Shown one piece after another: positions 2,308 to 34,143 of a DNA stretch of 58,518 nt. The DNA comes from Alphaproteobacteria bacterium (lineage in GTDB: Bacteria; Pseudomonadota; Alphaproteobacteria; SP197): the NCBI GenBank assembly GCA_028277285.1, contig JANQGO010000458.1, forward strand, positions 1-58,518, read 5' to 3'. Both the position numbers and the translations under genes were made by a program. The notes under the pieces are model-generated. The model made no database searches, was not told the DNA's origin, and worked only from the letters and a program-made list of their open reading frames with translations. How positions within the stretch are numbered: the first letter of the stretch is position 1; the number at the start of each line of letters is the position of its first letter.

Positions 2308-3087
2308 ATGCTTACATCGATCAAAGACCGTAGCGTCATCGTCACCGGCGCCTCGAAAGGTATCGGCAAGGGCATCGCCAAGGTGTTTGCCGCCCAGGGC
2401 GCCAAGGTCATGCTCGCCGCGCGAGGCGAAGCCGATCTGAAGGCCACGACCGATGAACTCAACGCGGCCGGCGGTACGTGCGAGTGCCGCACATGCGACG
2501 TGTCGGATTGGGAGTCCGTCCAGGCGCTCGTCAACGACACCGCCGAGACCTTCGGCGGCCTCGACGTCATGTGCGCCAATGCCGGCATCTTCCCGCAGAC
2601 CAAGATGGTCAGCATGGACCCGTCGGAGTGGGATCACGTGATGTCGGTGAACCTGAAAAGCGCCTTCCTGTGCGTTAAGGCGACCATTCCGCATTTCGAG
2701 AAAGCCGGCAAAGGCCGCATCGTCCTGACCTCATCGATCACCGGACCGATGACCGGTTTCCCCGGCTGGACCCATTACGGCGCGTCGAAAGCGGGCCAGC
2801 TCGGCTTCCTCAAGACCGCCGCCATGGAGATGAGCCGCTACAACACGACGGTCAACGCCGTCATGCCCGGCAACATCGCGACCGAGGGCCTGCACGACCT
2901 GGGCCAGGACTATGTCGACGCGATGATCGCGGCGATCCCGATCAAACGCCTGGGCGAGGTCGCCGATATCGGCAACGCCGCCCTGTTCCTGGCCTCCGAC
3001 GAGGCCGGTTTCATCACCGGCCAGACCATCGTCGTCGATGGCGGGCAGACGATCCCCGAATCCGTCGAAGCGATCGCGGACATCTAA
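2308..3087 (+). CDS. Short-chain dehydrogenase/reductase, candidate amino-alcohol dehydrogenase of an RMM-type BMC locus
   Basis: The protein has 259 residues, the classical SDR length. The nucleotide motif TGASKGIGKG is at residues 12-21, NAG follows beta-strand 4, SVNLKSA follows that, a catalytic Ser lies in LTSS, and YGASK supplies the active-site Tyr and Lys. The long ORF in the track starts far upstream inside the permease gene. I chose the ATG at 2308 because it has GGAGG about seven bases upstream and gives a normal N-terminus just before the Rossmann fold. SDRs in mycobacterial RMM loci have been characterised as 1-amino-2-propanol dehydrogenases, so the same role is inferred here. 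Generic 3-oxoacyl-ACP-reductase-like activity is the alternative. Confidence 0.9.
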   Translation: MLTSIKDRSVIVTGASKGIGKGIAKVFAAQGAKVMLAARGEADLKATTDELNAAGGTCECRTCDVSDWESVQALVNDTAETFGGLDVMCANAGIFPQTKMVSMDPSEWDHVMSVNLKSAFLCVKATIPHFEKAGKGRIVLTSSITGPMTGFPGWTHYGASKAGQLGFLKTAAMEMSRYNTTVNAVMPGNIATEGLHDLGQDYVDAMIAAIPIKRLGEVADIGNAALFLASDEAGFITGQTIVVDGGQTIPESVEAIADI

Positions 3088-3110: not shown

Positions 3111-4115
3111 ATGGACGACGCGGCGTTATCGCACGACACCCTGGTTGAACGGCTGCACGCACTGGCCAACGCGTCGCTCCATCTGTGGGACGTGCCGGAA
3201 GGCGCGACGGCGCGGCTGATCAACCTGTCGGAAAACGCGACCTATATGGTCGAAGGCCCGAACGGCTATCGCTCGGTCCTGCGCGTTCACCGCGAGGACT
3301 ATCACACCGTCAACGCGATCGGCTGCGAGCTCGCCTGGATGGCCGCGCTGAAGAGCGAAGGCGGCGTCGATACGCCGCCCGCCATCCCCGGCCGCGACGG
3401 CGAGCTGATCCAGACAGCCGGTGTCGAGGGCCTGCCCCGCCCGCGCCAGATGGTCATGTTCCAGTTTGTCGAGGGCGTGGAGCCCGACGAGACCGCCGAT
3501 CTGGTCGGCCCGTTCGAAGAGCTGGGCGAGATCGCCGCGCGCACCCATGTGCACGTCGCCAACTGGCAAAAACCCGCATCGTTCGAGCGCTTGATCTGGG
3601 ACTACGAGCACACCCTGGGCTCGACGCCCAACTGGGGTGACTGGCGCGCGGCACCGGCCATGGACGCAGCCGCCCTGGCGGTTCTGGAACGCCAGCAGGA
3701 GGTCATTCGCCGCCGCCTGGAGGCGTTCGGCATGGGGCCTGAACGCTACGGCCTGATTCACGCCGATATGCGGTTGGCGAACCTGTTGATCCACGAAGGC
3801 GCGACGCGCCTGATCGATTTCGACGACTGCGGGCTCGGCTGGCACATGTACGACTTCGCCGCCGGCGTGAGTTTCATCGAGGACAGTCCGCAGATCCCGG
3901 CCCTGAAGGATGCCTGGGTCAAGGGCTACCGCAAGGTGATCGACCTGCCGGCCGAAGACGAGCACGAAATCGATACCTTCGTCATGCTGCGCCGCATGGT
4001 ACTGCTGGCCTGGATCGGCTCGCATATCGAGACCGATCTGGCCCAGGAGATGGGCAAGACATTTACCAAGGTTTCGGTCGATCTGGCCGAGGATTACCTC
4101 TCCCGCTTCGCCTAG
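3111..4115 (+). CDS. APH/choline-kinase-fold phosphotransferase, candidate amino-alcohol kinase
   Basis: The protein has 334 residues and the aminoglycoside-phosphotransferase fold. The catalytic loop is LIHADMRLANLL (HxDxxxxN) near residue 220 and the metal-binding DFD is in LIDFDDCG about 20 residues later. Family members phosphorylate small alcohols such as choline, ethanolamine, homoserine or aminopropanol. It lies between an SDR and a class III PLP enzyme and upstream of BMC shell genes. This matches the kinase of RMM loci, which makes aminopropanol O-phosphate for a phospho-lyase. The start at 3111 follows GGAAGGGAGG with a suitable spacing. Antibiotic resistance is unlikely in this context. 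Confidence 0.85.
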   Translation: MDDAALSHDTLVERLHALANASLHLWDVPEGATARLINLSENATYMVEGPNGYRSVLRVHREDYHTVNAIGCELAWMAALKSEGGVDTPPAIPGRDGELIQTAGVEGLPRPRQMVMFQFVEGVEPDETADLVGPFEELGEIAARTHVHVANWQKPASFERLIWDYEHTLGSTPNWGDWRAAPAMDAAALAVLERQQEVIRRRLEAFGMGPERYGLIHADMRLANLLIHEGATRLIDFDDCGLGWHMYDFAAGVSFIEDSPQIPALKDAWVKGYRKVIDLPAEDEHEIDTFVMLRRMVLLAWIGSHIETDLAQEMGKTFTKVSVDLAEDYLSRFA

Positions 4116-4426: not shown

Positions 4427-5695
4427 ATGAGCCAGGAAAAGCTCGAATTTCTCGAGAGGTCGCGGACCTTCTGGAACCCGCGCAAGACGCAGGACTGGCA
4501 GGATATGGGCGTCGATCTGGTGATCGATCGGCGCGAGGGCTATTACCTCTACGATATGGACGGACGCCGGCTGATCGACGTCCACCTGAACGGCGGCACC
4601 TACAACCTGGGCCACCGCCATCCCGAGCTCGTCGAGGTGTTGAAGGCCGGCACCGCCCGCTTCGACATGGGCAACCACCACTTCCCGGCGCTCGCCAGGA
4701 CGGCGCTGGCCGAAGCGCTCGCACTCTGCACGCCCGGCGACCTCAAGTACACGATGTACGGCGCCGGCGGTGCGGAAGCCATTGAACTCGCGATCAAGTC
4801 CGCGCGCCACGCCGCCCAGAAACGCAAGATCGTCTCGATCATCAACGCCTACCACGGCCATAGCGGTCTTTCGGTCAAGGCCGGCGCCGAACGGTTCACG
4901 AAAATCTTCTTGTCAGAGGATACCGAGGGCGAGTTCGTCCAGGTGCCCTTCAACGACCTCGACGCCATGGAAGACGCGCTGAAGGGCCGCGACGTCGCCG
5001 CCGTTTTGATGGAGACGATCCCGGCGACCTACGGCTTTCCCATGCCGCACGAAGGGTATCTGCCGGGCGTGAAGCAGCTCTGCGAACGCTACGACGCCTT
5101 CTATATCGCCGACGAGGTGCAGACCGGCCTGATGCGCACCGGCGACATGTGGGGCATCACCCGCTATGGCGTCGAGCCCGACATCCTGGTGACCGGCAAG
5201 GGTATCACCGGCGGTCTCTACCCGATCTCCTGCTGCATCGCGTCGGAGCGCTGCGCCGGCTGGCTCAAGGTCGACGGCTTCGCCCATATGTCGACGGCGG
5301 GCGGTGCGGAACTCGGCTGCATTGTCGCCATGAAGACGCTGGAGATCCTGCAGCGGCCCGAGGTCCGGACGATGGTGCGTTATGTCTCCGACTACATGCG
5401 CCAGGGTCTCAACCAGATCCAGGATCTTTATCCCGATTTCTTCGTCGGCATCCGCCAACATGGCGTCGTCATGGGCCTTGAGTTCAACCACGAACAGGGC
5501 GCCAAGCCGGTGATGAAGCACCTCTACGAAAACGGCGTCTGGGCGATCTTCTCGACGCTCGACCCACGCGTTCTGCAGTTCAAGCCGGGCATCCTGATGA
5601 CCCAGGCCGAATGCGAAGACCTGCTGCGCCGGTGCGAGATCGCCATCGGTCTTGCCCGCCAGGAGGTCATGGGTGGCCAGCGGAGGATTGCCTAG
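4427..5695 (+). CDS. Class III PLP-dependent aminotransferase / phospho-lyase of the BMC locus
   Basis: The protein has 422 residues and fold-type I features. GAGGAEAIELAIK (about residues 107-119) binds the PLP phosphate, YHGHSG and DEVQTGLMRTG follow, and the Schiff-base lysine is in VTGKGITGG near residue 256. Class III includes both aminotransferases and amino-alcohol-phosphate phospho-lyases (AptA, ethanolamine-phosphate phospho-lyase). The latter role fits a kinase upstream and an acylating aldehyde dehydrogenase downstream, since phospho-elimination yields the aldehyde plus ammonia and phosphate. GAGGAGCC precedes the ATG. An omega-aminotransferase such as taurine:pyruvate transaminase is the main alternative, but it would leave the kinase unexplained. 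Confidence 0.9.
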   Translation: MSQEKLEFLERSRTFWNPRKTQDWQDMGVDLVIDRREGYYLYDMDGRRLIDVHLNGGTYNLGHRHPELVEVLKAGTARFDMGNHHFPALARTALAEALALCTPGDLKYTMYGAGGAEAIELAIKSARHAAQKRKIVSIINAYHGHSGLSVKAGAERFTKIFLSEDTEGEFVQVPFNDLDAMEDALKGRDVAAVLMETIPATYGFPMPHEGYLPGVKQLCERYDAFYIADEVQTGLMRTGDMWGITRYGVEPDILVTGKGITGGLYPISCCIASERCAGWLKVDGFAHMSTAGGAELGCIVAMKTLEILQRPEVRTMVRYVSDYMRQGLNQIQDLYPDFFVGIRQHGVVMGLEFNHEQGAKPVMKHLYENGVWAIFSTLDPRVLQFKPGILMTQAECEDLLRRCEIAIGLARQEVMGGQRRIA

Positions 5696-7263
5696 TGGAG
5701 GCGCAGGTGCGCACGCTGGTCGACATCTCCGGCAGCAAGGCGGCAATGACCGGCCGCGCCAACCTGATGCTGGAACGCGCCGGCTGGGCCTCCCAGGTCT
5801 TCCTGCGTTACGACCGCGACGCCACCATGAAGATCGTCGACGCGGTCGCCGACGCCGCCTTCGCCAATGCCGGACGCTTCGCCGAGATGGCGGTCGAGGA
5901 GACCGGCTTCGGCGTTGCCGCCCACAAGAAGCTCAAGAACGAGATGACGTCCCACGCCCTCGTCGACTTCTACCGCGACCAGGACTATGTCAGCCCGCGC
6001 ATCGACGAGGCGCGCAAGATCGTCGAGATCCCGCGGCCTGCCGGCGTCGTCTTCGCGCTGGCGCCCTCAACCAACCCGATCGCGACGCTGAACTTCAAGA
6101 CCATCATGGCGCTGATGACGCGCAACGCCATCGTCTTCAGCCCGCACCCGGCGGCACGCAAGTCGTGCGTCGAGGCGTGCCGGATCCTGGAGGACGCGGC
6201 GGTTGCCGCCGGCGCGCCGGACGGCGTCATCCAGATCATCGAAGATCCGACCGTGCCGCTGATCGAGGAGTTCATGGCCTCGCCCAAAACCGACGTCATC
6301 CTGGCGACCGGCGGCACGGCCATGGTGCGTGCGGCCTATTCCTCGTCCAACCCGGCGATCGGCGTCGGACCGGGCAACGCGCCGGTCTATGTCGATTCAA
6401 GCGCCGATCTGGACAAGGCGGCCAAGCGCATCGTTGCCTCCAAGAGTTTCGACAACTCGGTTCTCTGCACCAACGAGTCGACGCTGATCACGCTGGACGA
6501 GGTCGACCAGCGCCTGCGCCGCGCCCTGCAGCAGGCGGGCGCCCATATCTGTTCCAACGACGATGTCGACCGGCTGCGCACCTATCTCTTCCACGACCGC
6601 GGCTTCAACATCGAGGCCATTGGGCGCGACGCCACCTGGATCGCGGGCGAGTGTGGCATCAAGGTGCCGGGCAAGACCAAGATCCTGGTCGCGCCGATCA
6701 CCCAGATCGGCATCGAGGAGCCGCTGTCAAAGGAAAAACTCTGCCCGGTGCTGGCCTATCACGTGGCCTCCAGCCGCAGCCAGGCGCTGGCCCAGGCGCG
6801 CGCCCTGCTTCGCCTGACCGGCGCCGGTCACTCCGCCGCGATCCACGCCAACGATCCGGCAGTGACCCTTGCCTATGCCTCGGCGGTCGAAAGCTACCGC
6901 GTCGTCGTCAACGCGCCGTGCAGCCAGGGCGCGGCCGGTTTCGACACCAATCTGGCGCCCACCTTCACCATCGGCACCGGCTTTTTCGGCAGGAGCTCGA
7001 TCGGCGAGAACATCGGCCCGCACCATCTGGTCCACTGGACGCGGCTCGCCCACAACACGGCGGCCGACGAGGTCATGGGCGACTATCACGGCCTCCGGCA
7101 ACAGCTCGACGGGCCGTTGCAGCAGGCGCCGTCCGACGGCGTGCCCGGCCTCTCCATGACGCCACGCACGCAGCAGCCCGCCGCGGCGGCGATCGATGCC
7201 GGCATGCGCGAGGAGCTGCGCCGGCTGATCGCCGAAGAACTGCGCGCGGCGCTCAAGACGTAG
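5695..7263 (+). CDS. CoA-acylating aldehyde dehydrogenase with C-terminal encapsulation-peptide-like helix
   Basis: The protein has 522 residues and is related to EutE/PduP/SauS-type acylating dehydrogenases, which convert an aldehyde, CoA and NAD+ into acyl-CoA. The catalytic Cys is in FDNSVLCTNES. The GTG start shares one base with the aminotransferase stop (TAGTG) and has GGAGG eight bases upstream, so the 28 extra N-terminal residues in the track are not used. The catalytic core ends near residue 470. A Pro/Ala-rich linker (TPRTQQPAAAAID) then leads to the amphipathic helix MREELRRLIAEELRAALKT. That layout is typical of peptides targeting cargo to a BMC lumen. Propanal or acetaldehyde is the likely substrate. 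Confidence 0.92.
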   Translation: MEAQVRTLVDISGSKAAMTGRANLMLERAGWASQVFLRYDRDATMKIVDAVADAAFANAGRFAEMAVEETGFGVAAHKKLKNEMTSHALVDFYRDQDYVSPRIDEARKIVEIPRPAGVVFALAPSTNPIATLNFKTIMALMTRNAIVFSPHPAARKSCVEACRILEDAAVAAGAPDGVIQIIEDPTVPLIEEFMASPKTDVILATGGTAMVRAAYSSSNPAIGVGPGNAPVYVDSSADLDKAAKRIVASKSFDNSVLCTNESTLITLDEVDQRLRRALQQAGAHICSNDDVDRLRTYLFHDRGFNIEAIGRDATWIAGECGIKVPGKTKILVAPITQIGIEEPLSKEKLCPVLAYHVASSRSQALAQARALLRLTGAGHSAAIHANDPAVTLAYASAVESYRVVVNAPCSQGAAGFDTNLAPTFTIGTGFFGRSSIGENIGPHHLVHWTRLAHNTAADEVMGDYHGLRQQLDGPLQQAPSDGVPGLSMTPRTQQPAAAAIDAGMREELRRLIAEELRAALKT

Positions 7264-7269
7264 ACCGTC

Positions 7270-7881
7270 ATGGCCGATCTCCGATCCTTCATCTTCATCG
7301 ACCAGCTGCAGCCCCAGACGCTCGCCTATATCGCGACCTGGATGCGCGGCCACCTGCCGCGCCGCAACATGGCGGCCCAGATCATCGAGATCGCGCCGGG
7401 CCTGGATATCGAAGCACTGACCGACGTCGCCTTGAAGGGTGCCGATGTGAAGGCGGGTATCCTGGTGGTCGAACGCCAGTTCGGTTACCTGGAGTTCCAC
7501 GCCAAGTCGCCCGCCGAAGTCCGGGCCGGCGCACAGGCTGTGCTCGACGCGCTGGAAGCGCGGCCCGAGGACGCGACGCCGCCGAAGATCCTGGGCTCCA
7601 GCATCGTGTCGCGGGTCGACCGGCAGCACGCCTTCCTGATCAACCGCAATAAGCTGGGGTCGATGATCCTGGGCGGCGATTCGCTCTTCCTGCTCGAATG
7701 CCAGCCGGCGTCCTACGCGATCCTCGCCTGCAACGAGGCGGAGAAGGAAGCCAACATCAAGGTCATCGACTACCGCATGATCGGCGCCAACGGCCGCCTT
7801 TATCTGGCCGGCCGCGAAGCGGAGATCCGCGCCGCCCATGAGGCTGCGACCCGTGCGCTCGAACTCCAGGGCGCGGCTTAG
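7270..7881 (+). CDS. BMC-T shell protein (tandem BMC domains), first copy
   Basis: This 203-residue protein consists of two fused BMC domains, which form trimers that look like hexagons and tile into the microcompartment facet. The first domain carries the N-terminal DQLQPQTLAYIATWMRG and the conserved GILVVERQFGYLEFHA. The second carries HAFLINRNKLGSMILGGD followed by SLFLLECQPASYAILACNEAEK. It begins seven bases after the aldehyde dehydrogenase stop. Its paralogue at 9016-9645 shares the same signature phrases. I infer that both form facets, with pores that may pass metabolites or cofactors. Confidence 0.88.
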   Translation: MADLRSFIFIDQLQPQTLAYIATWMRGHLPRRNMAAQIIEIAPGLDIEALTDVALKGADVKAGILVVERQFGYLEFHAKSPAEVRAGAQAVLDALEARPEDATPPKILGSSIVSRVDRQHAFLINRNKLGSMILGGDSLFLLECQPASYAILACNEAEKEANIKVIDYRMIGANGRLYLAGREAEIRAAHEAATRALELQGAA

Positions 7882-7892
7882 GGAGCGGGGCG

Positions 7893-8342
7893 TTGGTCGA
7901 GGAACTCAGAGGCGTCATCCGCGAACTCCTGGCCGAGGAACTGGCCAAGGTGCGCGCCGAAATTGGCGGCAAACCGGCCGCCCCGGGGGTGCACGAAGAA
8001 GCAGTGACGATCGCGTCCGACCAGGACCTTGAGACTTTCGTCAAACGCCTGATGGCGCTTGCGAGCGATCCCAAGGCGCGCGGCGAGATCGAAGCCGGGC
8101 GCCACCGGTTTCGCCTGAGCGGGAACACACAAGCCGCTGAGTCGGCCGCCGCGCGCACCGCACCAAGTCAGGCGGGCGGCGCCACACCGCATTTCGACCG
8201 GGGCGTCGTCACCGAGCGTGACGTCGGCAAGCTGCCGCCCGGTCTTACAACGGTCCGGGTGAGCAAGCGCGTGCGCTTCACGCCGCTCGCCAAGGACGAA
8301 CTACGCCGACGCGGCGTCACCATCGAAAGGACATCGTCATGA
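7893..8342 (+). CDS. BMC-associated protein of unknown function with N-terminal encapsulation-like helix
   Basis: This 149-residue protein starts at a TTG 11 bases after the BMC-T stop and ends overlapping the BMC-P ATG (ATGA). The N-terminus VEELRGVIRELLAEELAKV is strongly amphipathic and resembles the dehydrogenase C-terminal tail. The middle is charged (DLETFVKRLMALASDPKARG). A low-complexity Ala/Thr linker leads to a C-terminal module, VTERDVGKLPPG...RFTPLAKDELRRRG. From memory, that module resembles the short 'TP-x-A+-E/D' segment at the N-terminus of EutT and in other Eut proteins. No catalytic motif is visible. A cargo scaffold or a shell-cargo linker is a reasonable hypothesis. Confidence 0.75.
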   Translation: MVEELRGVIRELLAEELAKVRAEIGGKPAAPGVHEEAVTIASDQDLETFVKRLMALASDPKARGEIEAGRHRFRLSGNTQAAESAAARTAPSQAGGATPHFDRGVVTERDVGKLPPGLTTVRVSKRVRFTPLAKDELRRRGVTIERTSS

Positions 8343-8584
8343 TCCGTGGTCGCGTGAAGGGCCGGGTCTGGTCCTCCAAACATATCGAGACACTGCCCAA
8401 TGGCGGCCTGCTGGAGGTCGAGACTGAAGGCGGCGGCACGCTGGTCGCCTTCGATCCGCTCGGCTGCGCCGACGGCGAGGCAGTGCTGGTCACGCAAGGC
8501 TCCGTCGCCGCCGGATACTTCACCGGCACCAAGGCGCCGGTCGACGCGCTGATCATCGGCTCGATCGACGAAGAAGGCGGCTAA
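8339..8584 (+). CDS. BMC-P pentameric vertex protein (EutN/CcmL family)
   Basis: The protein has 81 residues, typical of EutN/CcmL (about 80-100). The family pattern is clear: an N-terminal [11 protein letters not shown] strand, [24 protein letters not shown], and the terminal [12 protein letters not shown]. Pentamers cap the vertices of the icosahedral shell, so one such gene is required for a closed compartment. The ATG overlaps the preceding stop in ATGA, which couples its low-copy synthesis to the 149-residue protein. Basic residues cluster near the N-terminus. No extension is present. Confidence 0.92.
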
Positions 8585-8670
8585 GGCCATGGCCCGCATC
8601 GCCACCCGCAAACGTTCACCCGCCGGCGTCACGCCCAAGCGGGCATCATCCGGCCGCAAGGCCGCACCTC

Positions 8671-8680
8671 GGAAGGAAGG
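8671..8680 (+). promoter_or_regulatory. Strong ribosome binding site deciding the BMC-H start
   Basis: GGAAGGAAGG lies seven bases upstream of the ATG at 8688. It favours this internal ATG over the in-frame ATG at 8589, which would add 33 mostly basic residues and has only a weak AAGG upstream. Confidence 0.7.
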
Positions 8681-8687
8681 AAATCCC

Positions 8688-8969
8688 ATGTCGAACCAGG
8701 CGATTGGAATGATCGAAACCAAAGGCTTCGTTGCGGCGCTCGCCGCGGCGGACGCCATGGTCAAGGCGGCGAACGTCACCATCGTGGCGCGCGAAGAAGT
8801 CGGCGACGGCCTTGTCGCGGTTGTCATCAAAGGCGATGTCGGCGCCGTCAAAGCGGCGACCGAAGCCGGCGCCGAGACCGCCAACCAGGTTGGCGAGATG
8901 GTCTCCGTCCACGTCATTCCGCGGCCCCACGCCGACCTCGGCAAGTACTTCGACTCCACCGGTAAGTGA
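8688..8969 (+). CDS. BMC-H hexameric shell protein (PduA/EutM family) with an Asp in the pore position
   Basis: From the ATG at 8688 the product has 93 residues, the canonical single-BMC-domain length. The sequence follows PduA/EutM closely: [14 protein letters not shown] at the N-terminus, KAANVTIV, the pore loop [24 protein letters not shown], and VHVIPRPH near the C-terminus. Six subunits form a hexagonal tile with a central pore lined by the loop. The usual IGSG or IGGG is here VGDG, putting Asp40 at the narrowest point. The 126-residue ORF in the track adds a basic N-terminal extension ([18 protein letters not shown]) that is probably untranslated leader, though a minor extended form cannot be excluded. 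Confidence 0.92.
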
Positions 8970-9015: not shown

Positions 9016-9645
9016 ATGACCGAGCTACGAGTCTATCTGCCGATCCACGATCTGCAGCCACAGTTCGCGGCTTACCTGAGCTCGCCGACACGCGCGCGCG
9101 GCTACCCGCCGTTCGAGCACGAACACAGTCTGATCATCGAGGTCTCGCCGGCGCTGTCGATCCACCGGATCATCGATCTGGCGCTAAAGGCAGCGCCCGA
9201 CATGGAACCGGGCATCCTGTTCACCGAACGGCAGTTCGGTCTCCTGGAACTGCATGCCGAAGACGAGGCGGCGCTGGCCGATGCCGGTCAGGCCATCCTG
9301 GACGGCATCGGTGCCAAGGCGTCGGACCAACTGGCGCCGACGATTTTGTTCCACGACATCATCGAGGATATCGCCGACCAGCACGCGATCATCCTGAACC
9401 GGACCCGAGACGCCTCGATCCTGGTCCCCGGCACCTCACTGCTGGTCTACGAAATGGCGCCCGCCCTCTTCGCCTGCGTCGCGGCGAACGAGGCCGAACG
9501 CGCCGCGCCCGAAGCCACCATCAACGACGTCCAGATGATGGGCGCGTCCGGCCGCATCTTCATGTCCGGCAGCACCGACGACATGATCCGCGCCCGCGAT
9601 ACCATCACCGAAACCCTCGAGGCCATCGAGGGCCGTAAGGGCTGA
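9016..9645 (+). CDS. BMC-T shell protein (tandem BMC domains), second copy
   Basis: This 209-residue protein is paralogous to the product of 7270-7881. It shares HDLQPQFAAYL near the N-terminus, GILFTERQFGLLELHAE in the first domain, and QHAIILNRTRDASILVPG in the second. The ORF starts earlier in the track, but that segment is BMC-H read in another frame. The ATG at 9016 follows GGCGAGG. It closes the BMC operon and is followed by an inverted-repeat element. Two divergent BMC-T copies in one small locus suggest stacked or heteromeric facets, or two pores with different gating. Confidence 0.87.
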   Translation: MTELRVYLPIHDLQPQFAAYLSSPTRARGYPPFEHEHSLIIEVSPALSIHRIIDLALKAAPDMEPGILFTERQFGLLELHAEDEAALADAGQAILDGIGAKASDQLAPTILFHDIIEDIADQHAIILNRTRDASILVPGTSLLVYEMAPALFACVAANEAERAAPEATINDVQMMGASGRIFMSGSTDDMIRARDTITETLEAIEGRKG

Positions 9646-25380: not shown

Positions 25381-26085
25381 TTACGCTCCTTCCGTCGGGT
25401 CGAGTGCCGGGCGATTGGCCGCCCTTATGCGTGTTCTCAGCCGGTCGGGGCCGCAACCGCCATCGTCGCCGCCACCAAAGGTCACGGCCTCCTCCTCCCA
25501 GATACGATCGAGATCCTCTAAGTCGTTGGGGTCGTGTTCCGGCTGGGCCATCAACGCGGCGACCTCGTCGGCTTCCGGTTCGCGCTTGGCAATGTCCTCC
25601 AACGCGCGAAACACGCCGGCATAGGCGGATTGGCGTTTGGCCAGCCGTTTACCGATGGCGACGATGATGTGGAGCGGCTGGCGCAGAACATCCCTGGCGT
25701 CATCAAGCGGCATCGTGCTCAAGAACTCCAGGAACAGCGGCAGGAAGTCCGGCAGTTCGCGGGCGTCGATCTTCAGACCGTGTTCCTCGTACATCGCCAT
25801 CAAGTCGACCATGGCTTGCCCGCGGTCGCGGCTTTCGCCGTGGACGTGTTCGAAGAGATGCAGCGACAGCGTCCGCGTGCGGTCGAACAACAGGACGTAC
25901 CGTTCCTGCATGTCATAGAGATCGCCGCCGGCGAGTTCGTCGATCAGGTCGTTGACAACGCGGATCTCACGGCGTCCCAACAACGCCTCGTCGGCCAAAA
26001 CCGCCTTCATATCGCCGGCAGCTTCGCGGATCTCGCGCGTCGGATAGGTCAACACCAGCGACAGCACCTTGAAAGTCTGGGTCAT
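25381..26085 (-). CDS. narJ: Nitrate reductase molybdenum-cofactor assembly chaperone
   Basis: This 234-residue helical TorD/NarJ-family chaperone inserts the Mo cofactor into NarG but is not part of the final enzyme. Characteristic parts are QTFKVLSLVLTYPTREI at the N-terminus and DLMAMYEEHGL followed by ELPDFLPLFLEFL. The track ORF starts at 26181, but the ATG at 26085 overlaps the narH stop (ATGA) and gives the family length. The C-terminus is a Gly/Asp-rich tail (TFGGGDDGGCGPD). Confidence 0.95.
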   Translation of the reverse strand: MTQTFKVLSLVLTYPTREIREAAGDMKAVLADEALLGRREIRVVNDLIDELAGGDLYDMQERYVLLFDRTRTLSLHLFEHVHGESRDRGQAMVDLMAMYEEHGLKIDARELPDFLPLFLEFLSTMPLDDARDVLRQPLHIIVAIGKRLAKRQSAYAGVFRALEDIAKREPEADEVAALMAQPEHDPNDLEDLDRIWEEEAVTFGGGDDGGCGPDRLRTRIRAANRPALDPTEGA

Positions 26086-27626
26086 GACCGGCCTCCCCCG
26101 GCAAACGCATCTGTCGGCGTTGCCACCGTCTTCTTGCGTTTGGCGCCGAACAGATCGAAGTCCGTCGACCCGAGGGAACAACCATTGCCGAACGAGAAAC
26201 CGCAGGAGCCTCTCACGTCATAGGCGTCCTCGCCGACCTCGCGGTGGCTGCTCGGGATGACGAACCGGTCCTCGAAATTGGCGATCGCCATGACGTGGTA
26301 CATGTCGTCGATCTGCTGGCCGGTCAGCCCGACCCGTTCGGCGATCGTGTTGTCGGTGACGCCGTCGATGGTCTTGGCGCGCATGTAGCCGCGCATCGCG
26401 AGCATACGTTCCAGCGCCAGCACGACCGGTGCCTCCTTGCCGGCCGTCAGCAGATTAGCCAGGTATTTCACCGGGATACGCAGCGAGCGCACGTCCGGCA
26501 TCGCGCCGTCGACCCCGATCATGCCGGACTCCGCCGCCGACTGGATCGGCGAGAGCGGCGGCACGTACCACACCATGGGCAGGGTGCGGTATTCGGGATG
26601 CAGCGGGAAAGCGACCTTCCAATCGAACGCCATCTTCCAGACCGGCGAGTGCTTGGCCGCCTCAAGCCAGGCATCCGGCACGCCGTCCTTCTTGGCCCGG
26701 GCGATGACCTCGGGATCGTTGGGATCGAGGAAGACGGAGAGCTGGGCTTCGTAGAGGTCTTCCTCTTCCGCCGTCGCTGCCGCTTCTTCGATACGGTCGG
26801 CGTCATAGAGCACAACGCCCAGATAACGGATGCGCCCGACGCAGGTTTCCGAACACACCGTCGGCTGGCCTGCCTCGATGCGCGGGTAGCAGAAGATGCA
26901 CTTCTCCGACTTGCCGGTCTGCCAGTTGTAATAGATCTTCTTGTACGGGCAACCGGAGACGCACATGCGCCAACCCCGGCACTTTTCCTGATCGATCAGG
27001 ACGATGCCGTCCTCCTCGCGCTTGTAGATGGCGCCCGAGGGACAGGCCGCGACGCAGGTCGGGTTCAGGCAGTGTTCGCAGAGCCTGGGCAGGTACATCA
27101 TGAAGGTGTTTTCGAATTCGCCGTAAATCTCCTTCTCAACGTCCTCGAAGTTGTAGTCCGCCGACCGCTTTTCGAACTCGCCGCCCAGGATCTCTTCCCA
27201 GTTCGGCCCGCCTTCGACTTTTTCCATCTGCAGGCCGGTGATGAGCGAGCGCGGCCGCGCCGTCGGCGAAGCCTCCAGCTCCGGTGCCGTCTGCAAGTGC
27301 TCGTAGTCGAAGGTGAAGGGTTCGTAATAGTCGTCGATCTCCGGCAGGTCCGGGTTGGCGAAGAGCTTGGCCAGGATGAAGGGTTTCGACCCCATCTTCG
27401 GCCGGATCTTGCCGTTCTTGCTGCGCTGCCAGCCGCCGTTCCAGCGGTCCTGGTTTTCCCAGTCGTTGGGATAGCCGGTGCCCGGCTTGGTCTCGACGTT
27501 GTTGAACCACGCGTATTCCATGCCCTCGCGGTTGGTCCACACGTTCTTGCAGGTGACCGAACAGGTGTGACAGCCGATGCACTTGTCCAGGTTCAGCACC
27601 ATGCCGATTTGCGCGCGGATGTTCAT
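26082..27626 (-). CDS. narH: Respiratory nitrate reductase beta subunit (iron-sulfur)
   Basis: The protein has 514 residues, close to the E. coli length. Four cysteine groups bind one [3Fe-4S] and three [4Fe-4S] clusters: CIGCHTCSVTCKNVW, CEHCLNPTCVAACPSGA, CRGWRMCVSGCPYK (the Trp replaces a Cys, as expected for the 3Fe cluster), and CIFCYPRI...CSETCVGR. It wires NarI haem to NarG. Start and stop overlap narG and narJ by four bases each, which couples translation through the operon. Confidence 0.97.
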   Translation of the reverse strand: MNIRAQIGMVLNLDKCIGCHTCSVTCKNVWTNREGMEYAWFNNVETKPGTGYPNDWENQDRWNGGWQRSKNGKIRPKMGSKPFILAKLFANPDLPEIDDYYEPFTFDYEHLQTAPELEASPTARPRSLITGLQMEKVEGGPNWEEILGGEFEKRSADYNFEDVEKEIYGEFENTFMMYLPRLCEHCLNPTCVAACPSGAIYKREEDGIVLIDQEKCRGWRMCVSGCPYKKIYYNWQTGKSEKCIFCYPRIEAGQPTVCSETCVGRIRYLGVVLYDADRIEEAAATAEEEDLYEAQLSVFLDPNDPEVIARAKKDGVPDAWLEAAKHSPVWKMAFDWKVAFPLHPEYRTLPMVWYVPPLSPIQSAAESGMIGVDGAMPDVRSLRIPVKYLANLLTAGKEAPVVLALERMLAMRGYMRAKTIDGVTDNTIAERVGLTGQQIDDMYHVMAIANFEDRFVIPSSHREVGEDAYDVRGSCGFSFGNGCSLGSTDFDLFGAKRKKTVATPTDAFAGGGRS

Positions 27627-30600
27627 TCGGCCGCCTCCATCGTGTGGGTGGGTTGCGCGTCACGGGCCGGCCGGTCGAGCCAGTCGACCTTTTGCATCTT
27701 GCGCACGATGACAAACTCGTCGCGGTTCGAGCCCACGGTGCCGTAGTAGTTGAAGCCGTAAGACTGTTGCGCGTAGCCGCCGATCATGTGGGTCGGCTTG
27801 ACGATGGCGCGGGTGACGGAGTTGTGGATCCCGCCGCGTTGACCGGTTGTCTCCGCGCCCGGCACGTTCACGATCTTCTCCTGGGCGTGGTACATGTAGA
27901 TCGTGCCTTCCTTGATGCGTTGCGACACGACCGCGCGCGCCACCAGCGCGCCGTTGGCGTTGTAGGCTTCGACCCAGTCGTTATCGACGATGCCTGCCTT
28001 CCGCGCGTCGATCTCCGAAATCCAGACGATCGGACCGCCGCGTGACAGCGTCAGCATCAGCAGGTTGTCGGTATAGGTCGAGTGAATACCCCACTTCTGA
28101 TGCGGGGTGATGAAGTTGAGGATGACCTGCTTGTAGCCCTCCGACTTCGCTTCGATCATCGGCGTGATGGACTTGGTGTCGATCGGTGGCCGATAGAGGC
28201 AGAGCGCCTCACCGAAGGCGCGCATCCACAGATGATCCTGGTAGAGCTGCTGACGTCCCGTCAGCGTGCGCCAAGGAATCAGCTCGTGCACATTGGTGTA
28301 ACCGGCGTTGTAGCAGACCTTTTCGGACTCAAGCCCCGACCAGGTCGGCGACGAGATGATCTTGCGCGGCTGCGCCACCACATCGTGAAAGCGGATCTTC
28401 TCGTCCTCTTTGGGTACCGCCAGGTGCCGGTGCTCGCGCCCGGTGTTCTTCGATAGGGCATCCCAGGCCTTGACCGCGACCTCGCCGTTGGTCTCCGGCG
28501 CCAGCATCAAGATGACCTCGGACGCATCGATATCGGTTTCGATGCGGGCCATGCCTTTCGTCGGCCCGTCTTCGGTCACCGCGCCATTCAACCGCTTGAG
28601 GTTCTCGACCTCATGATCGGTGTTCCAGGTAATGCCTTTGCCGCCGTTGCCCGCTTTCTCCATCAGCGGACCCAACGCGGTGAACCGTTTGTAGAGGTTC
28701 GGATAGTCGCGCTCGACGACCGCCACCTGGGGCATGGTCTTGCCCGGGATGGCGTCGGTCTCGCCCTTCTTCCACTCCTTCACATCCAGCGCCTGCGCGA
28801 TCTCGGCCGGCGTGTCGTGCAGGATCGGCACCAGCACGACGTCCTTTTCGACGCCCAGCACCTCGGGCGCGACATCGGAAAACGCCTTGGCGATGCCTTT
28901 ATAGATCTCCCAGTCCGAACGTGCTTCCCAGGCCGGGTCCGCCGCGCTGGTCAGCGGGTGGATGAACGGATGCATGTCCGACGTGTTGAGGTCGTTCTTC
29001 TCGTACCAGGTCGCCGTCGGCAACACGATGTCGGAGTAGACACAGGTCGTCGACATGCGGAAGTCGAGGGTGACCAGCAGGTCCAGCTTGCCCTCCGGCG
29101 CGTCGTCATGCCACGCGACCTCGGTCGGCTTCTGGCCGCCGTCCTCGCCCAGGTCCTTGCCCTGCACGCCGTGGCTGGTGCCCAGCAGGTGTTTCAGGAA
29201 GTATTCGTGTCCCTTGCTCGACGAACCCAGCAGATTGGAGCGCCAGACAAACAGATTGCGTGGCCAGTTCGCCGGGTTGTCCGGATCCTCGCACGACATC
29301 TTGAGCGTGCCCGACTTCAGGTTGTCGGCGACATAGTCCTTGGCCTCGACACCAGCCTCAGTAAAGGCACGGCCGACCTCCAGCGGGTTGGTCTGAAGCT
29401 GTGGCGCCGACGGCAGCCAACCCATGCGTTCGGCGCGCACGTTATAGTCGATCAGCGAACCGTCCCACGGGCCGGCGGGCGCGGTCGGCGAGAGGATCTC
29501 GTCGATCGACAAGGTTTCGTAGCGCCACTGGTCCGTATGGGCATACCAGAACGAGGTCGAGTTCATGTGGCGCGGCGGCCGTCCCCAATCCAGGGCAAAC
29601 GCCAGGGGCAGCCAGCCAGTCTGGGGTCTGAGCTTCTCCTGCCCCACATAATGCGACCAGCCGCCGCCCGACTGCCCGACGCAGCCGCACATGACCAGGA
29701 GATTGATGATCCCCCGGTAGTTCATGTCCATGTGGTACCAGTGATTCAGGCCGGCGCCCAAGATCACCATCGACTTGCCATGCGTCTTCTCCGCGTTGGC
29801 GGCGAACTCGCGCGCGACGGTGATGATGTGACTGGCCGGCACGCCGGTGATGGCCTCCGCCCAGGCCGGCGTATAGGGCACGTTCTCGTCAAAGCTTGAC
29901 GCGACATGGTCGCCGCCCAAACCGCGGTCCAAACCATAGTTGGCGACGAACAAGTCAAAGACGGTCGCGACCAGCGCCTCGCCGTCGGCCAGCCTGACGG
30001 TCTTCGCCGGCACCCGGCGTACCAGGACGTCGGGATGATCGGTGCCTTCGAAGTGGTCGTGCTGGCGGTTGCCGAAATAGGGGAAACCGACCTCGGCGAC
30101 CTCGTCGTGGACGTCGTCCATGATGAAGCTCATCTCGAGCTCGACGTCGCGGCCCCGGCCGTCCTTGGACTCCAGGTTCCATTTGCCTTCCTCGCCCCAT
30201 CGGTGACCGACGGAGCCGAGCGGCGCGACGATCTCGCCCGACAGGCGGTCGACGGCAACCGTCTTCCATTCGGGATTGTTGCTCTCGCCCAGGCCGTCGG
30301 CGAAGTCAGAGGCGCGGACCAGACGGTCGGGCACCAGGTACCCGTCCTTTTCGACCAGTCGCACCAGCATCGGCATGTCGGTGTAGCGCCGGCCGTAATC
30401 CTCGAAGTATTCGGCCTGACGGTCCAAATGGAACTCGCGCAGGATGACATGACCCATGGCCATGGCGAGCGCGGAGTCCGTGCCCTGCTTGGGATGCAGC
30501 CAGAGGTCGGAGAACTTGGCGGCCTCGCTGTAGTCGGGCGAGACGACGACCGACTTGGCGCCCTTGTAGCGGACCTCCGTATAGAAGTGGGCGTCGGGCG

Positions 30601-31384
30601 TACGCGTCTGCGGCACGTTCGACCCCCACAGGATCAGGAAGCCGGAGTTGTACCAGTCGGCGGATTCCGGCACGTCGGTCTGCTCGCCCCAGGTCTGCGG
30701 CGAGGCCGGCGGCAGGTCGCAGTACCAGTCATAGAACGACATGCAGACGCCGCCCATGAGCGACAGGTAACGCGAACCCGCCGCATAGGAGACCATGGAC
30801 ATGGCGGGGATCGGCGAAAAGCCGATGACCCGGTCGGGCCCATAGGTCTTGGCGGTGTACGCGTTAGCCGAGGCGATGATCTCGCTGATCTCGTCCCAGC
30901 CGGCGCGGACAAAACCGCCCAGGCCACGCTTCTTGACGTAGGACGCCCGCGTATCCGGCGTCTCGACGATCGACGCCCAGGCGGCGACCGGCGTCATGGT
31001 CGCGCGCGCCGACCGCCACGCCTTCAGGAGGCGAGAACGGATCAGCGGATGCTTCAAGCGATTGCCTGAATACATGTACCAGCTGTAGCTGGCGCCGCGG
31101 GAGCAGCCGCGCGGTTCGTGGTTCGGCAGATCCGGCCGGGTGCGTGGATAGTCGGTGTGCTGGGTTTCCCAGGTGACGATCCCGCCCTTCACATAGATCT
31201 TCCAGGAACACGAGCCCGTGCAGTTCGCGCCGTGGGTCGAACGCACGACCTTGTCGTGCTGCCACCGCTTACGGTAGCCGTCTTCCCAAGCCCGGTTCTC
31301 CGACGTCACGACGCCGTGGCCGTCGGAGAACTCGCCGATGGTCCTCGCCCGGAAGAAATTGAGCCGATCAATCAGGTGGCTCAT
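27623..31384 (-). CDS. narG: Respiratory nitrate reductase alpha subunit (Mo-bisMGD catalytic)
   Basis: The protein has 1253 residues. The N-terminal HGANCTGSCSWKIY plus a later CSRG provides the His/Cys ligands of the FS0 [4Fe-4S] cluster. LILWGSNVPQTRTPDAH contains the Asp expected to coordinate molybdenum. There is no twin-arginine export signal of the periplasmic Nap type, so the active site faces the cytoplasm. It reduces nitrate to nitrite for proton-motive respiration. The ATG overlaps the narK stop by four bases. All key residues I can check are intact. Confidence 0.97.
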   Translation of the reverse strand: MSHLIDRLNFFRARTIGEFSDGHGVVTSENRAWEDGYRKRWQHDKVVRSTHGANCTGSCSWKIYVKGGIVTWETQHTDYPRTRPDLPNHEPRGCSRGASYSWYMYSGNRLKHPLIRSRLLKAWRSARATMTPVAAWASIVETPDTRASYVKKRGLGGFVRAGWDEISEIIASANAYTAKTYGPDRVIGFSPIPAMSMVSYAAGSRYLSLMGGVCMSFYDWYCDLPPASPQTWGEQTDVPESADWYNSGFLILWGSNVPQTRTPDAHFYTEVRYKGAKSVVVSPDYSEAAKFSDLWLHPKQGTDSALAMAMGHVILREFHLDRQAEYFEDYGRRYTDMPMLVRLVEKDGYLVPDRLVRASDFADGLGESNNPEWKTVAVDRLSGEIVAPLGSVGHRWGEEGKWNLESKDGRGRDVELEMSFIMDDVHDEVAEVGFPYFGNRQHDHFEGTDHPDVLVRRVPAKTVRLADGEALVATVFDLFVANYGLDRGLGGDHVASSFDENVPYTPAWAEAITGVPASHIITVAREFAANAEKTHGKSMVILGAGLNHWYHMDMNYRGIINLLVMCGCVGQSGGGWSHYVGQEKLRPQTGWLPLAFALDWGRPPRHMNSTSFWYAHTDQWRYETLSIDEILSPTAPAGPWDGSLIDYNVRAERMGWLPSAPQLQTNPLEVGRAFTEAGVEAKDYVADNLKSGTLKMSCEDPDNPANWPRNLFVWRSNLLGSSSKGHEYFLKHLLGTSHGVQGKDLGEDGGQKPTEVAWHDDAPEGKLDLLVTLDFRMSTTCVYSDIVLPTATWYEKNDLNTSDMHPFIHPLTSAADPAWEARSDWEIYKGIAKAFSDVAPEVLGVEKDVVLVPILHDTPAEIAQALDVKEWKKGETDAIPGKTMPQVAVVERDYPNLYKRFTALGPLMEKAGNGGKGITWNTDHEVENLKRLNGAVTEDGPTKGMARIETDIDASEVILMLAPETNGEVAVKAWDALSKNTGREHRHLAVPKEDEKIRFHDVVAQPRKIISSPTWSGLESEKVCYNAGYTNVHELIPWRTLTGRQQLYQDHLWMRAFGEALCLYRPPIDTKSITPMIEAKSEGYKQVILNFITPHQKWGIHSTYTDNLLMLTLSRGGPIVWISEIDARKAGIVDNDWVEAYNANGALVARAVVSQRIKEGTIYMYHAQEKIVNVPGAETTGQRGGIHNSVTRAIVKPTHMIGGYAQQSYGFNYYGTVGSNRDEFVIVRKMQKVDWLDRPARDAQPTHTMEAAE

Positions 31385-34143
31385 GCCGCACCTCCCTTGT
31401 GCGCGGCCGCTGTGCCGGCTGCATCCGCCGTCGTGCGTCCGCGTTCGATGTCATGGAGCAGACCGCCGCGCCGCGTGTAGACCCACCAGGTCACCAGCGC
31501 GCAGGTGACGTAGAAGATCATGAAACCCCACAGCGCCGCCGACGGACCGCCGGTCAGGACGATCGAGGTGCCGTAGGATTTCGGGATCGCGAACGCGCCA
31601 TAGGCGGCGATGGCGGAGGTGAAGCCGATAATGGCGGCGGCCTCCTTCTCGCCCTGGCGCACCTGCTCGGCCGGGCTCAACTGCGGCATCAGCCGGCCGA
31701 CCTCGCTGCGCATGATCACGGGGATCATCTGGAAGGTCGACGCGTTGCCCACGCCCGTTGCGAAGAACAGGATCATGAACATGGCGAAGAAACCCCAGAA
31801 CGCACCCGGCTGGTCCTTCGTGGCGAGGAAATAGAGCACGCCGCCGACCGCCGCGATCATCACGACGAAAGTCCAGAACGTGACGCGCCCGCCGCCATAC
31901 TTGTCGGACATCCAGCCCGTCGCCGCCCGTGACAGCGCGCCGACAAGGGGTCCTAAGAAGACGTACTGGAGTGAGTTGACGTCCGGGAACTGGGTCTTGG
32001 CCAGTAGCGGGAAGCCCGCGGAATAGCCGATGAACGAGCCGAAGGTCCCGATATAGAGCCAGCACATGATCCAGTTGTGCTTGCGGCTGAAGATGACCGA
32101 TTGCTCCTTCAGCGACGCCTTGGCGGTCGCCAGATCGTTCATGCCGAACCAGGCGGCAATCGCCGAAATGATCAGGAACGGCACCCAGATGAAGCCGGCG
32201 TTCTGCAGCCAGAGCTGCGTGTTGTCGCTGGTCGTCTGAGGTTCGCCACCCATGACACCGAAGACCCCTGCCGTGATCACCAGCGGCACGACAAACTGCA
32301 TGACGCTGACGCCGGCGTTGCCGAGCCCGGCATTGAGCGCCAGCGCGTGACCCTTCTGCCGCTTCGGGAAGAAGAAGCTGATGTTGGCCATGGAGGAGGC
32401 GAAGTTGCCGCCACCCAAACCGCACAGCAGCGCCAGGACCAGGAAGATCAGATAGGGCGTGTCCGGGTTCTGTACCGCGTAACCGATGCCGAAGGCCGGC
32501 AGCAGCAGCGACGCTGTCGTCATCGTGGTCCATAGACGCCCGCCGAAGATCGGGATCATGAACGAATAGAAGATGCGCAAGGTCGCGCCCGACAGCCCCG
32601 GTAAGGCGGCGAGCCAGAACAGCTCATCGACCGAATAGTCGAAACCGATCGACGGCAGCTTGGCGACGACCACGCTCCAGACCAGCCAGACCGAGAAGGC
32701 CAAGAGCAGACAGGGGATCGAGATCCACAGATTGCGGTTGGCGATCTTTCGCCCCTTCTCTTGCCAGAACTGCTCATCGTCCGGGCGCCAGTCCTCGATG
32801 GCGTGACTCTTAGTCATAACCTTGGCTTCCTCTTTGCCGTGGATCGGTTGCATTTCGGGCAGTTCCGGCAGAGCACCGAGCTCTTCCTTGAGCGCGGCCT
32901 GCTCCATGCGCCTGACGGCGAAGTGCATCCACACCAGCGCGACGGCGACGATGCCGAACAGCAGCATGAAGCAGCTGGTCCAGACACCGGTCAGATCGTT
33001 CATGACGCCGAAGGTGATCGGCAGCACGAACCCGCCCAATCCGCCGATCATGCCGACCAGACCGCCGACCGCGCCGACATGGGTCGGGTAATAGACGGGG
33101 ATGTGCTTGTAGACCGCCGCCTTGCCGAGCGACATGAAGAAACCGAGGATGAAGATCAGAACGACAAAGGGGACCAGGCTCATGCTTGTGGTGAACGTGA
33201 TCGGCCCCTCGATGCCCTGGATGATGTATTGCGTGTTGGGATAGGACAGCATGAAGCAGCAGATCGCCGACACGCCGAAGGTCCAGTACATGACCTTGCG
33301 GGCACCATAGCGGTCGGAGAGGTAACCGCCATAGGCACGGAACAGGCTGGCCGGCACCGCGTAGAAGGCCGCCAGGATACCGGCGGTCTCGATGCTGAGC
33401 CCATAGACGCCGATCAGGTAGCGCGGCAGCCACAGCGCCAGCGCGACAAACGCGCCGAAGACGAAGAAATAGTAGAGCGAGAAACGCCAGACCTGGATGT
33501 TGCGCAGCGGCGCCAGCTCCATCAGCGTGCTGCGCGCCTTTTCGCCGCGCGCCCGGCGCGCGACGGTGGCCGGGTCGTCCTTGGTCAACAGATAGAAACC
33601 GATCGCGACGATCAGCAGAACGACCGCATAGACCTGCGCCGTCTGCTCCCAACCGAACGCCACCAAGAGGAACGGCGCGCCGAAGTTCGTAACGGCCGCG
33701 CCGACATTGCCGACGCCGAAGATGCCGAGCGCGGTGCCCTGTTTCTCACGCGGATACCAGCGCGAGATATAGGCGATACCGACCGCGAACGAACCGCCGG
33801 CCAGGCCGACGCCCAGCGCTGCGACCAGGAACATGACGTAGGTCTCGACGGTCGACAGCAGATAGGTTGCGATCGCCGAGAAGATCATGACCAGCGTATA
33901 GACAAGACGCCCGCCGTACTGGTCGGTCCAGATGCCGAGGAAGATGCGGCTGACCGAACCGGTCAGGATCGGTGTCGCCACCAGCAGGCCGAACTCCGTA
34001 TCGTTCAGGCCAAGATCGGCTTTGATCTTGACGCCGATGATCGAAAAGATCGTCCACGCCGCGAAACACACGGCGAAGGCAAACGTGCTTAAGCCCAGGA
34101 CGTTGGTTTGCTGGCGCTTCGTGACACCGTCCAGATGGTCCAT
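31381..34143 (-). CDS. narK: Fused NarK1-NarK2 nitrate/nitrite transporter
   Basis: The protein has 920 residues, twice a single NarK, with two twelve-helix MFS units. The first half starts QTNVLGLSTFAFAVCFAAWT and resembles the nitrate/proton symporter type. The second starts near residue 443 with MTKSHAIEDWRPDDEQFWQE and resembles E. coli NarK, a nitrate/nitrite antiporter. Such fusions are known in Paracoccus and other denitrifiers. The linker (about residues 415-445) is hydrophilic. Translation begins at 34143 after GGGGGAG. An FNR-type box sits about 90 bp upstream of the start. Confidence 0.95.
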   Translation of the reverse strand: MDHLDGVTKRQQTNVLGLSTFAFAVCFAAWTIFSIIGVKIKADLGLNDTEFGLLVATPILTGSVSRIFLGIWTDQYGGRLVYTLVMIFSAIATYLLSTVETYVMFLVAALGVGLAGGSFAVGIAYISRWYPREKQGTALGIFGVGNVGAAVTNFGAPFLLVAFGWEQTAQVYAVVLLIVAIGFYLLTKDDPATVARRARGEKARSTLMELAPLRNIQVWRFSLYYFFVFGAFVALALWLPRYLIGVYGLSIETAGILAAFYAVPASLFRAYGGYLSDRYGARKVMYWTFGVSAICCFMLSYPNTQYIIQGIEGPITFTTSMSLVPFVVLIFILGFFMSLGKAAVYKHIPVYYPTHVGAVGGLVGMIGGLGGFVLPITFGVMNDLTGVWTSCFMLLFGIVAVALVWMHFAVRRMEQAALKEELGALPELPEMQPIHGKEEAKVMTKSHAIEDWRPDDEQFWQEKGRKIANRNLWISIPCLLLAFSVWLVWSVVVAKLPSIGFDYSVDELFWLAALPGLSGATLRIFYSFMIPIFGGRLWTTMTTASLLLPAFGIGYAVQNPDTPYLIFLVLALLCGLGGGNFASSMANISFFFPKRQKGHALALNAGLGNAGVSVMQFVVPLVITAGVFGVMGGEPQTTSDNTQLWLQNAGFIWVPFLIISAIAAWFGMNDLATAKASLKEQSVIFSRKHNWIMCWLYIGTFGSFIGYSAGFPLLAKTQFPDVNSLQYVFLGPLVGALSRAATGWMSDKYGGGRVTFWTFVVMIAAVGGVLYFLATKDQPGAFWGFFAMFMILFFATGVGNASTFQMIPVIMRSEVGRLMPQLSPAEQVRQGEKEAAAIIGFTSAIAAYGAFAIPKSYGTSIVLTGGPSAALWGFMIFYVTCALVTWWVYTRRGGLLHDIERGRTTADAAGTAAAHKGGAA

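Follow-up and report, generated by a model that had tools for sequence, protein, structure and literature searches.

The attachment of the enzyme core to the shell in metabolosomes is an open question, raised here by a short gene lying among the shell genes of a bacterial microcompartment (BMC) locus. The locus belongs to a stretch of 58,518 nucleotides of alphaproteobacterial DNA, the window of this study. The gene (7893..8342, + strand) starts with TTG and encodes a 149-aa protein which is a candidate shell-cargo linker of an RMM microcompartment; we refer to it as the linker gene, after this proposed role. An earlier note on this DNA had presented its product as an unrecognised BMC-locus protein, and indeed Pfam gives no family for it.

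The neighbouring genes, all on the + strand, define the type of compartment. Immediately upstream lies a BMC-T gene (7270..7881) whose product has the RMM shell protein MSM0275 of M. smegmatis as best PDB match (5L39, E 4.7e-84). Downstream follow the BMC-P vertex protein of the EutN/CcmL family (8339..8584; PF03319, E 4.4e-18), a BMC-H (8589..8969, with an alternative start at 8688; PF00936, E 7.1e-27) and a second BMC-T (9016..9645) best matched by the RMM shell protein MSM0271 of M. smegmatis (5SUH, E 7.2e-85). The enzymes are a short-chain dehydrogenase (SDR; 2308..3087; best PDB matches 6CI8 and 6CI9, E 8e-88), an APH-family kinase (3111..4115; PF01636, E 1.4e-20) and a class III aminotransferase-fold enzyme (4427..5695; PF00202, E 8.8e-73), the latter two being syntenic members of the RMM pathway, and an acylating aldehyde dehydrogenase (ALDH; 5692..7263), the likely cargo, which bears a C-terminal extension. 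The gene set of RMM loci has been defined and tied to amino-2-propanol (PMC4207490). Both types of BMC-T, the BMC-P and the BMC-H are present in this locus, as are the four enzymes of that definition: SDR, APH-type kinase, class III aminotransferase and ALDH. The locus is an RMM-type (amino-alcohol) microcompartment locus, and the linker gene is a member of it. The positional equivalent of this gene in M. smegmatis is expected, from the locus numbering, to be MSM0274. As a side observation, the BMC-H reading frame carries 33 extra residues, basic in character, at its N-terminal end, and a strong GGAAGGAAGG precedes the internal ATG at 8688, where a start would yield a plain BMC-H. No RNA family was found by Rfam in the window.

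The linker gene is preceded by a Shine-Dalgarno sequence, GGGAG (7881-7885), seven bases 5' of the TTG. Its homologs keep the reading frame, including that of the nearest relative (locus L007). Compared with this relative, the dN/dS over the whole gene is 0.28, synonymous changes dominate and the last 50 residues show no amino-acid change. These data indicate that 7893-8342 is a real gene under selection. Its stop codon overlaps the start of the BMC-P gene in an ATGA (8339..8342, + strand), an overlap present in 8/8 homologous loci examined, in agreement with the translational coupling to the vertex protein put forward previously.

The place of the gene is fixed. In all related loci from two collections the order is ALDH, BMC-T, linker gene, BMC-P, BMC-H, BMC-T, and wherever a related locus was found, that of Rhodococcus RHA1 included, BMC-T and BMC-P flank the linker gene. 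The RMM-type pair of BMC-T genes occurs in 8 of 289 sampled alphaproteobacterial genomes, and the linker gene in exactly the same 8 (8/8). Taken together, the fixed place and the co-occurrence show that the gene is a fixed part of the shell cassette. An apparent ninth homolog (G049, locus L016, E 6e-4) was dropped, being a partial match inside an unrelated 757-aa reading frame. Within the source's own 5.3-Mb genome there is neither a second copy of the gene nor any other significant match to the module profile described below. The Rhodococcus jostii RHA1 homolog, WP_011600239.1, annotated as a 'hypothetical protein', shares 27.8% identity over 95% (E 1e-3); it lies in the same cassette, ALDH-BMC-T-X-BMC-P-BMC-H, but is actinobacterial and diverged. 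On the RHA1 plasmid pRHL2, the ALDH-linked cassette is followed by a second copy, and both contain the linker gene as a 'hypothetical protein'. The two BMC-T/linker/BMC-P/BMC-H cassettes (L031:5934-12864) carry identical protein accessions; this and the helical tail shared there by the ALDH and the aminotransferase suggest a recent duplication.

The AlphaFold2 model of the protein, built on 8 homologs, has an overall pLDDT of 64. It opens, as PduM does, with a predicted helix (residues 2-24; 7896..7964, + strand; pLDDT about 65), a candidate cargo-facing or encapsulation-type element. A conserved middle unit of predicted beta-alpha-alpha-beta fold (residues 34-75; 7992..8117, + strand) is kept also in RHA1. 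There follow a variable linker rich in Ala, Ser, Thr and Pro, (residues 76-99; 8118..8189, + strand; low pLDDT over about 76-103), and a C-terminal module, the predicted shell-docking unit (residues 100-149; 8190..8339, + strand). Modelled alone, the module reaches a pLDDT of 84 with a predicted beta-alpha-beta-beta-alpha-beta topology; its consensus is GVvTE..v..L..g...l.l...V.iTPLArD.a....I.IER. The helix-linker-module design read from the sequence in the earlier note is thus reproduced by the model. In two homologs (L014:871-1716 and L015:1495-2979, the latter on the - strand), a SnoaL-like domain (PF12680, E 2e-18) is inserted in the variable linker, after the N-terminal part and ahead of the module, and the middle unit takes a variant form; this SnoaL/NTF2-like domain is possibly an added lumenal enzyme. 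Foldseek searches of the PDB with the full model and with the module gave nothing below E 0.18, only short overlaps with IF2/eIF5B, ribosomal proteins and Cas1. Several other matches were set aside as chance: Pfam Tim54 (E 0.02), uL24m and pseudoazurin in the PDB (E 0.4-8), PHROG 15267 (E 0.25) and SSXRD, the latter on a relative of the protein. No E3-binding (peripheral subunit-binding) domain came up in the PDB searches, so a likeness to this kind of domain finds no support.

The C-terminal module, of about 45 residues, has homologs at the N-termini of EutT and EutQ, at the C-termini of PduM and of the NCBIfam family TIGR02536, and in a C-terminal extension of PduL. In profile-profile comparisons with hhalign, each spanning 48-50 columns (48 for EutQ), the scores were 30.2 for PduM, 28.6 for EutQ, 25.7 for the 'mini' family, 23.0 for EutT and 18.1 for TIGR02536, whereas 300 column shuffles of the query per family reached at most 13.6 and none of the 300 attained the real score. 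The resemblance to EutT and other Eut proteins suspected earlier is therefore genuine. PduM sequences were in all comparisons taken from annotated records. The NCBIfam models gave sub-threshold matches pointing the same way, each at the end of the model: TIGR02536 on homolog L010 (E 1.8e-4) and TIGR04493 (PduM) on the linker protein and its homologs (E 0.01-0.05). Pfam does not recognise the module in the linker protein, and in EutQ and EutT it falls outside the regions that Pfam matches (85-232, PF06249, and 95-246, PF01923, respectively); neither Pfam nor NCBIfam defines it as a domain of its own. In the literature accessible without subscription, we found no statement of a module shared by PduM, EutQ and EutT.

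A profile built from RMM sequences only (A4) was searched over whole records. In the plasmid records of Salmonella (E 6e-4) and Klebsiella (E 0.05), PduM was its top match. Only two matches came from an Acetoanaerobium record of 2.6 Mb: the C-terminus of a PduL (E 0.004) and a small EutQ-N-like protein (E 0.008) lying in the eut locus. All of these fell within BMC loci. In R. oxybenzonivorans, the only match (E 4e-6) was a small protein adjoining a BMC-T. The single RMM profile did not find EutQ in genomes, and the link to E. coli EutQ and EutT needs the profile-profile comparison. A combined profile gave 12 matches in 7 of 399 Pseudomonadota genomes, all of them (12/12) in BMC loci. Two of these are RMM matches, eight are EutQ or EutT, one is PduM, and the last is a divergent RMM-like locus (L094) with the same plan. 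Because this search was seeded with these very families, its value lies in the lack of matches elsewhere and in the new locus.

These searches also yielded proteins worth recording in their own right. The Acetoanaerobium PduL-type phosphotransacylase (L041:3598-4500) comprises an N-terminal helix, a PTAC domain (45-216) and a C-terminal copy of the module, and hence combines the two types of targeting element in one enzyme. Small eut-locus proteins of 88-115 aa (L041:4536-4805, L042:4633-4899 and L040:4549-4896) resemble a free-standing EutQ N-terminus, i.e., module plus helices; in these loci the cupin is encoded separately, by a gene whose product begins with a helix, as in a split EutQ. In the small R. 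oxybenzonivorans protein (L034:6621-7007), encoded after a BMC-T in a BMC locus, the N-terminus comprises most of the module and the tail is rich in Pro. E. coli EutQ (L017:8303-9004, - strand) aligns over its first 92 residues with the beginning of PRK10719, the NCBIfam model for EutA (E 1.6e-9); the module may hence occur in some EutA proteins as well.

A role for the module comes from EutQ, whose residues 1-99 are an experimentally demonstrated shell-cargo linker (PMC12487888). EutQ lacking residues 9-41, a segment that falls inside the aligned module, stays with the cargo, whereas the variant without 62-99 follows the shell (PMC12487888); binding of EutQ to EutM had been reported earlier (PMC4827028). 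The earlier note had imagined a scaffold nucleating cargo, in a role for which it could name no family. Such roles have in fact been demonstrated, for PduM (PMC9132943, PMC12108088) as for the EutQ N-terminus (PMC12487888), and the nucleating part finds no support. In that reading the helix would condense the enzymes and the module would bind cargo. The likeness of the N-helix to the ALDH tail (see below) would permit a helix-helix association with cargo, but the EutQ counterpart of the module binds the shell, cargo peptides bind a different segment of EutQ (residues 63-99; PMC12487888), and when pduM is mutated the enzymes of the cargo remain grouped with one another, away from the shell (PMC9132943). 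We regard a cargo-nucleating scaffold as extremely improbable. Since the module is that by which EutQ grips the shell and the gene is present in every related locus, the protein is probably a linker of enzymes to the shell. The order of parts is reversed in EutQ, which begins with the module (residues 1-49) and continues with H3/H4 and the cupin PF06249 (85-232); E. coli EutQ matches this Pfam family, and the linker protein does not.

PduM (TIGR04493/PF15953) has the same order as the linker protein, helix - middle - C-terminal module, and its gene likewise lies directly upstream of that of BMC-P, but in a different type of locus. It is a minor structural protein whose loss partly separates core from shell and whose residues 1-23 target the core (PMC9132943, PMC12108088). 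Without these residues PduM loses most of its MCP association, and PduM alone does not follow the shell (PMC9132943), so the PduM module is only a putative shell binder. A nearly full-length hhalign comparison of the linker protein with PduM (137 columns) scored 34.4; as the gain over the module alone (30.2) is small, we do not claim homology of the middle part. A 2025 paper described PduM as having no known sequence homology outside Pdu (PMC12108088); the present comparison supplies such a homology. TIGR02536, annotated 'ethanolamine utilization protein' and found in EUT2 loci, also reads helix - middle - C-terminal module and, in Cetobacterium, is encoded directly upstream of BMC-P as the linker is; at about 200 aa, it has a longer middle part. 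By curated definitions the linker protein is not a PduM, EutQ, EutT or TIGR02536: it scores 15.5 bits against a PduM cut-off of 50, over model positions 111-153 only, leaves PF15953 unmatched, and scores 14.3 bits against 152.6 for TIGR02536.

The gene order itself might suggest a vertex or closure factor, in which the module would dock on the BMC-P pentamer and control vertex insertion and shell size rather than link cargo. The linker gene is coupled to BMC-P and always adjoins it, the PduM and TIGR02536 genes do likewise, and PduM mutants form oversized compartments (PMC12108088). The shell partners measured for EutQ, though, are EutM and EutL, not EutN (PMC12487888), and in E. coli neither eutQ nor eutT adjoins eutN; we consider such a factor very unlikely.

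EutT shares the module (residues 1-50) but continues into an adenosyltransferase, and the linker protein has no Pfam match to its cobalamin adenosyltransferase domain PF01923. The profile match to a catalytic family that the earlier note set against its own reading did not turn up; the only link to an enzyme is to this N-terminal appendage of EutT, which lies outside the catalytic Pfam region (95-246). No enzyme-family profile matches the linker protein, in line with the structural, non-enzymatic role already supposed. Neither EutT nor PduL, which have the module, is a known linker, and the module may be an address tag only, bringing such proteins into or onto the compartment; the real job of the linker protein would then lie elsewhere, in the middle unit (for example ALDH stabilisation, size regulation or part in a second reaction). 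That the module is fused to enzymes (EutT, the EutQ cupin, PduL), that two RMM linker homologs contain an inserted SnoaL domain and that the middle unit is conserved would all suit such a tag. The lack of an enzyme family for the linker protein speaks against it, as do the EutQ segment, which is needed for shell-cargo linking beyond the recruitment of the cupin (PMC12487888), and the Acetoanaerobium PduL, whose possession of both N-terminal helix and module indicates that the two are not redundant. On balance, a mere address tag seems unlikely.

The other end of the protein was compared with the cargo. The ALDH ends in a helical tail, MREELRRLIAEELRAALKT (7204..7260, + strand), a candidate encapsulation peptide conserved in the homologous loci and in RHA1. 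The tail lies beyond the region conserved among other ALDHs, the plasmid homologs aligning only to about residue 453-463 of 523. The profile of the N-terminal helix scored 19.4 against this tail, and 1 of 300 shuffles was as good. Of the lumen-targeting helix proposed earlier, the helix itself is thus predicted and resembles the ALDH tail, but in hydrophobic moment this sequence does not exceed its shuffles (p 0.38-0.45). The helix is probably the cargo-facing one; as a targeting peptide it is plausible, with only moderate support. On pRHL2 (L031), the ALDH and the aminotransferase share the same helical end tail.

We therefore favour, as the likely reading, a shell-cargo linker of the PduM/EutQ-N type for the RMM microcompartment, whose C-terminal module docks on the shell and whose N-terminal helix joins the core, the gene being coupled through the ATGA. 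By analogy with EutQ-N and PduM, the module of about 45 residues would dock on the inside of the shell, with BMC-H or BMC-T as the likeliest partner, and the N-terminal helix would associate with the enzyme core, probably by way of the ALDH's helical tail or as another helix of that kind. The two would be connected by a flexible linker, in the order of PduM and the reverse of EutQ. Coupling through the ATGA may ensure that the linker is made in step with the vertex protein, so that the enzyme core stays joined to the shell as it closes. This would propose a function for a conserved RMM 'hypothetical protein'.

A broader claim, to which we give about an even chance, is that one shell-docking domain of about 45 residues is common to PduM, EutQ, EutT, TIGR02536, some PduL and the RMM linker, proteins with no other kinship, and always binds the same conserved site of BMC-H/BMC-T. 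If so, shell-cargo linking would be one common mechanism across PDU, EUT and RMM compartments instead of separate inventions, and the shared module would turn separate puzzles of core attachment into one testable mechanism. A small, portable shell-docking tag would also be useful for loading engineered compartments.

Elsewhere in the window, two further regions were recognised by eye from their translations. On the minus strand, 25381-34143 carries a Nar nitrate reductase operon with a 920-aa double NarK-like transporter. The region 35140-58488 holds an NRPS/PKS-like cluster in which a ketosynthase gene is cut by the contig end; it also encodes a phosphopantetheinyl transferase, two NRPS genes, an FkbM-type methyltransferase, a thioesterase, an AMP ligase, two phytanoyl-CoA dioxygenase-like genes and an ABC exporter with a cyclic-nucleotide-binding-like end.
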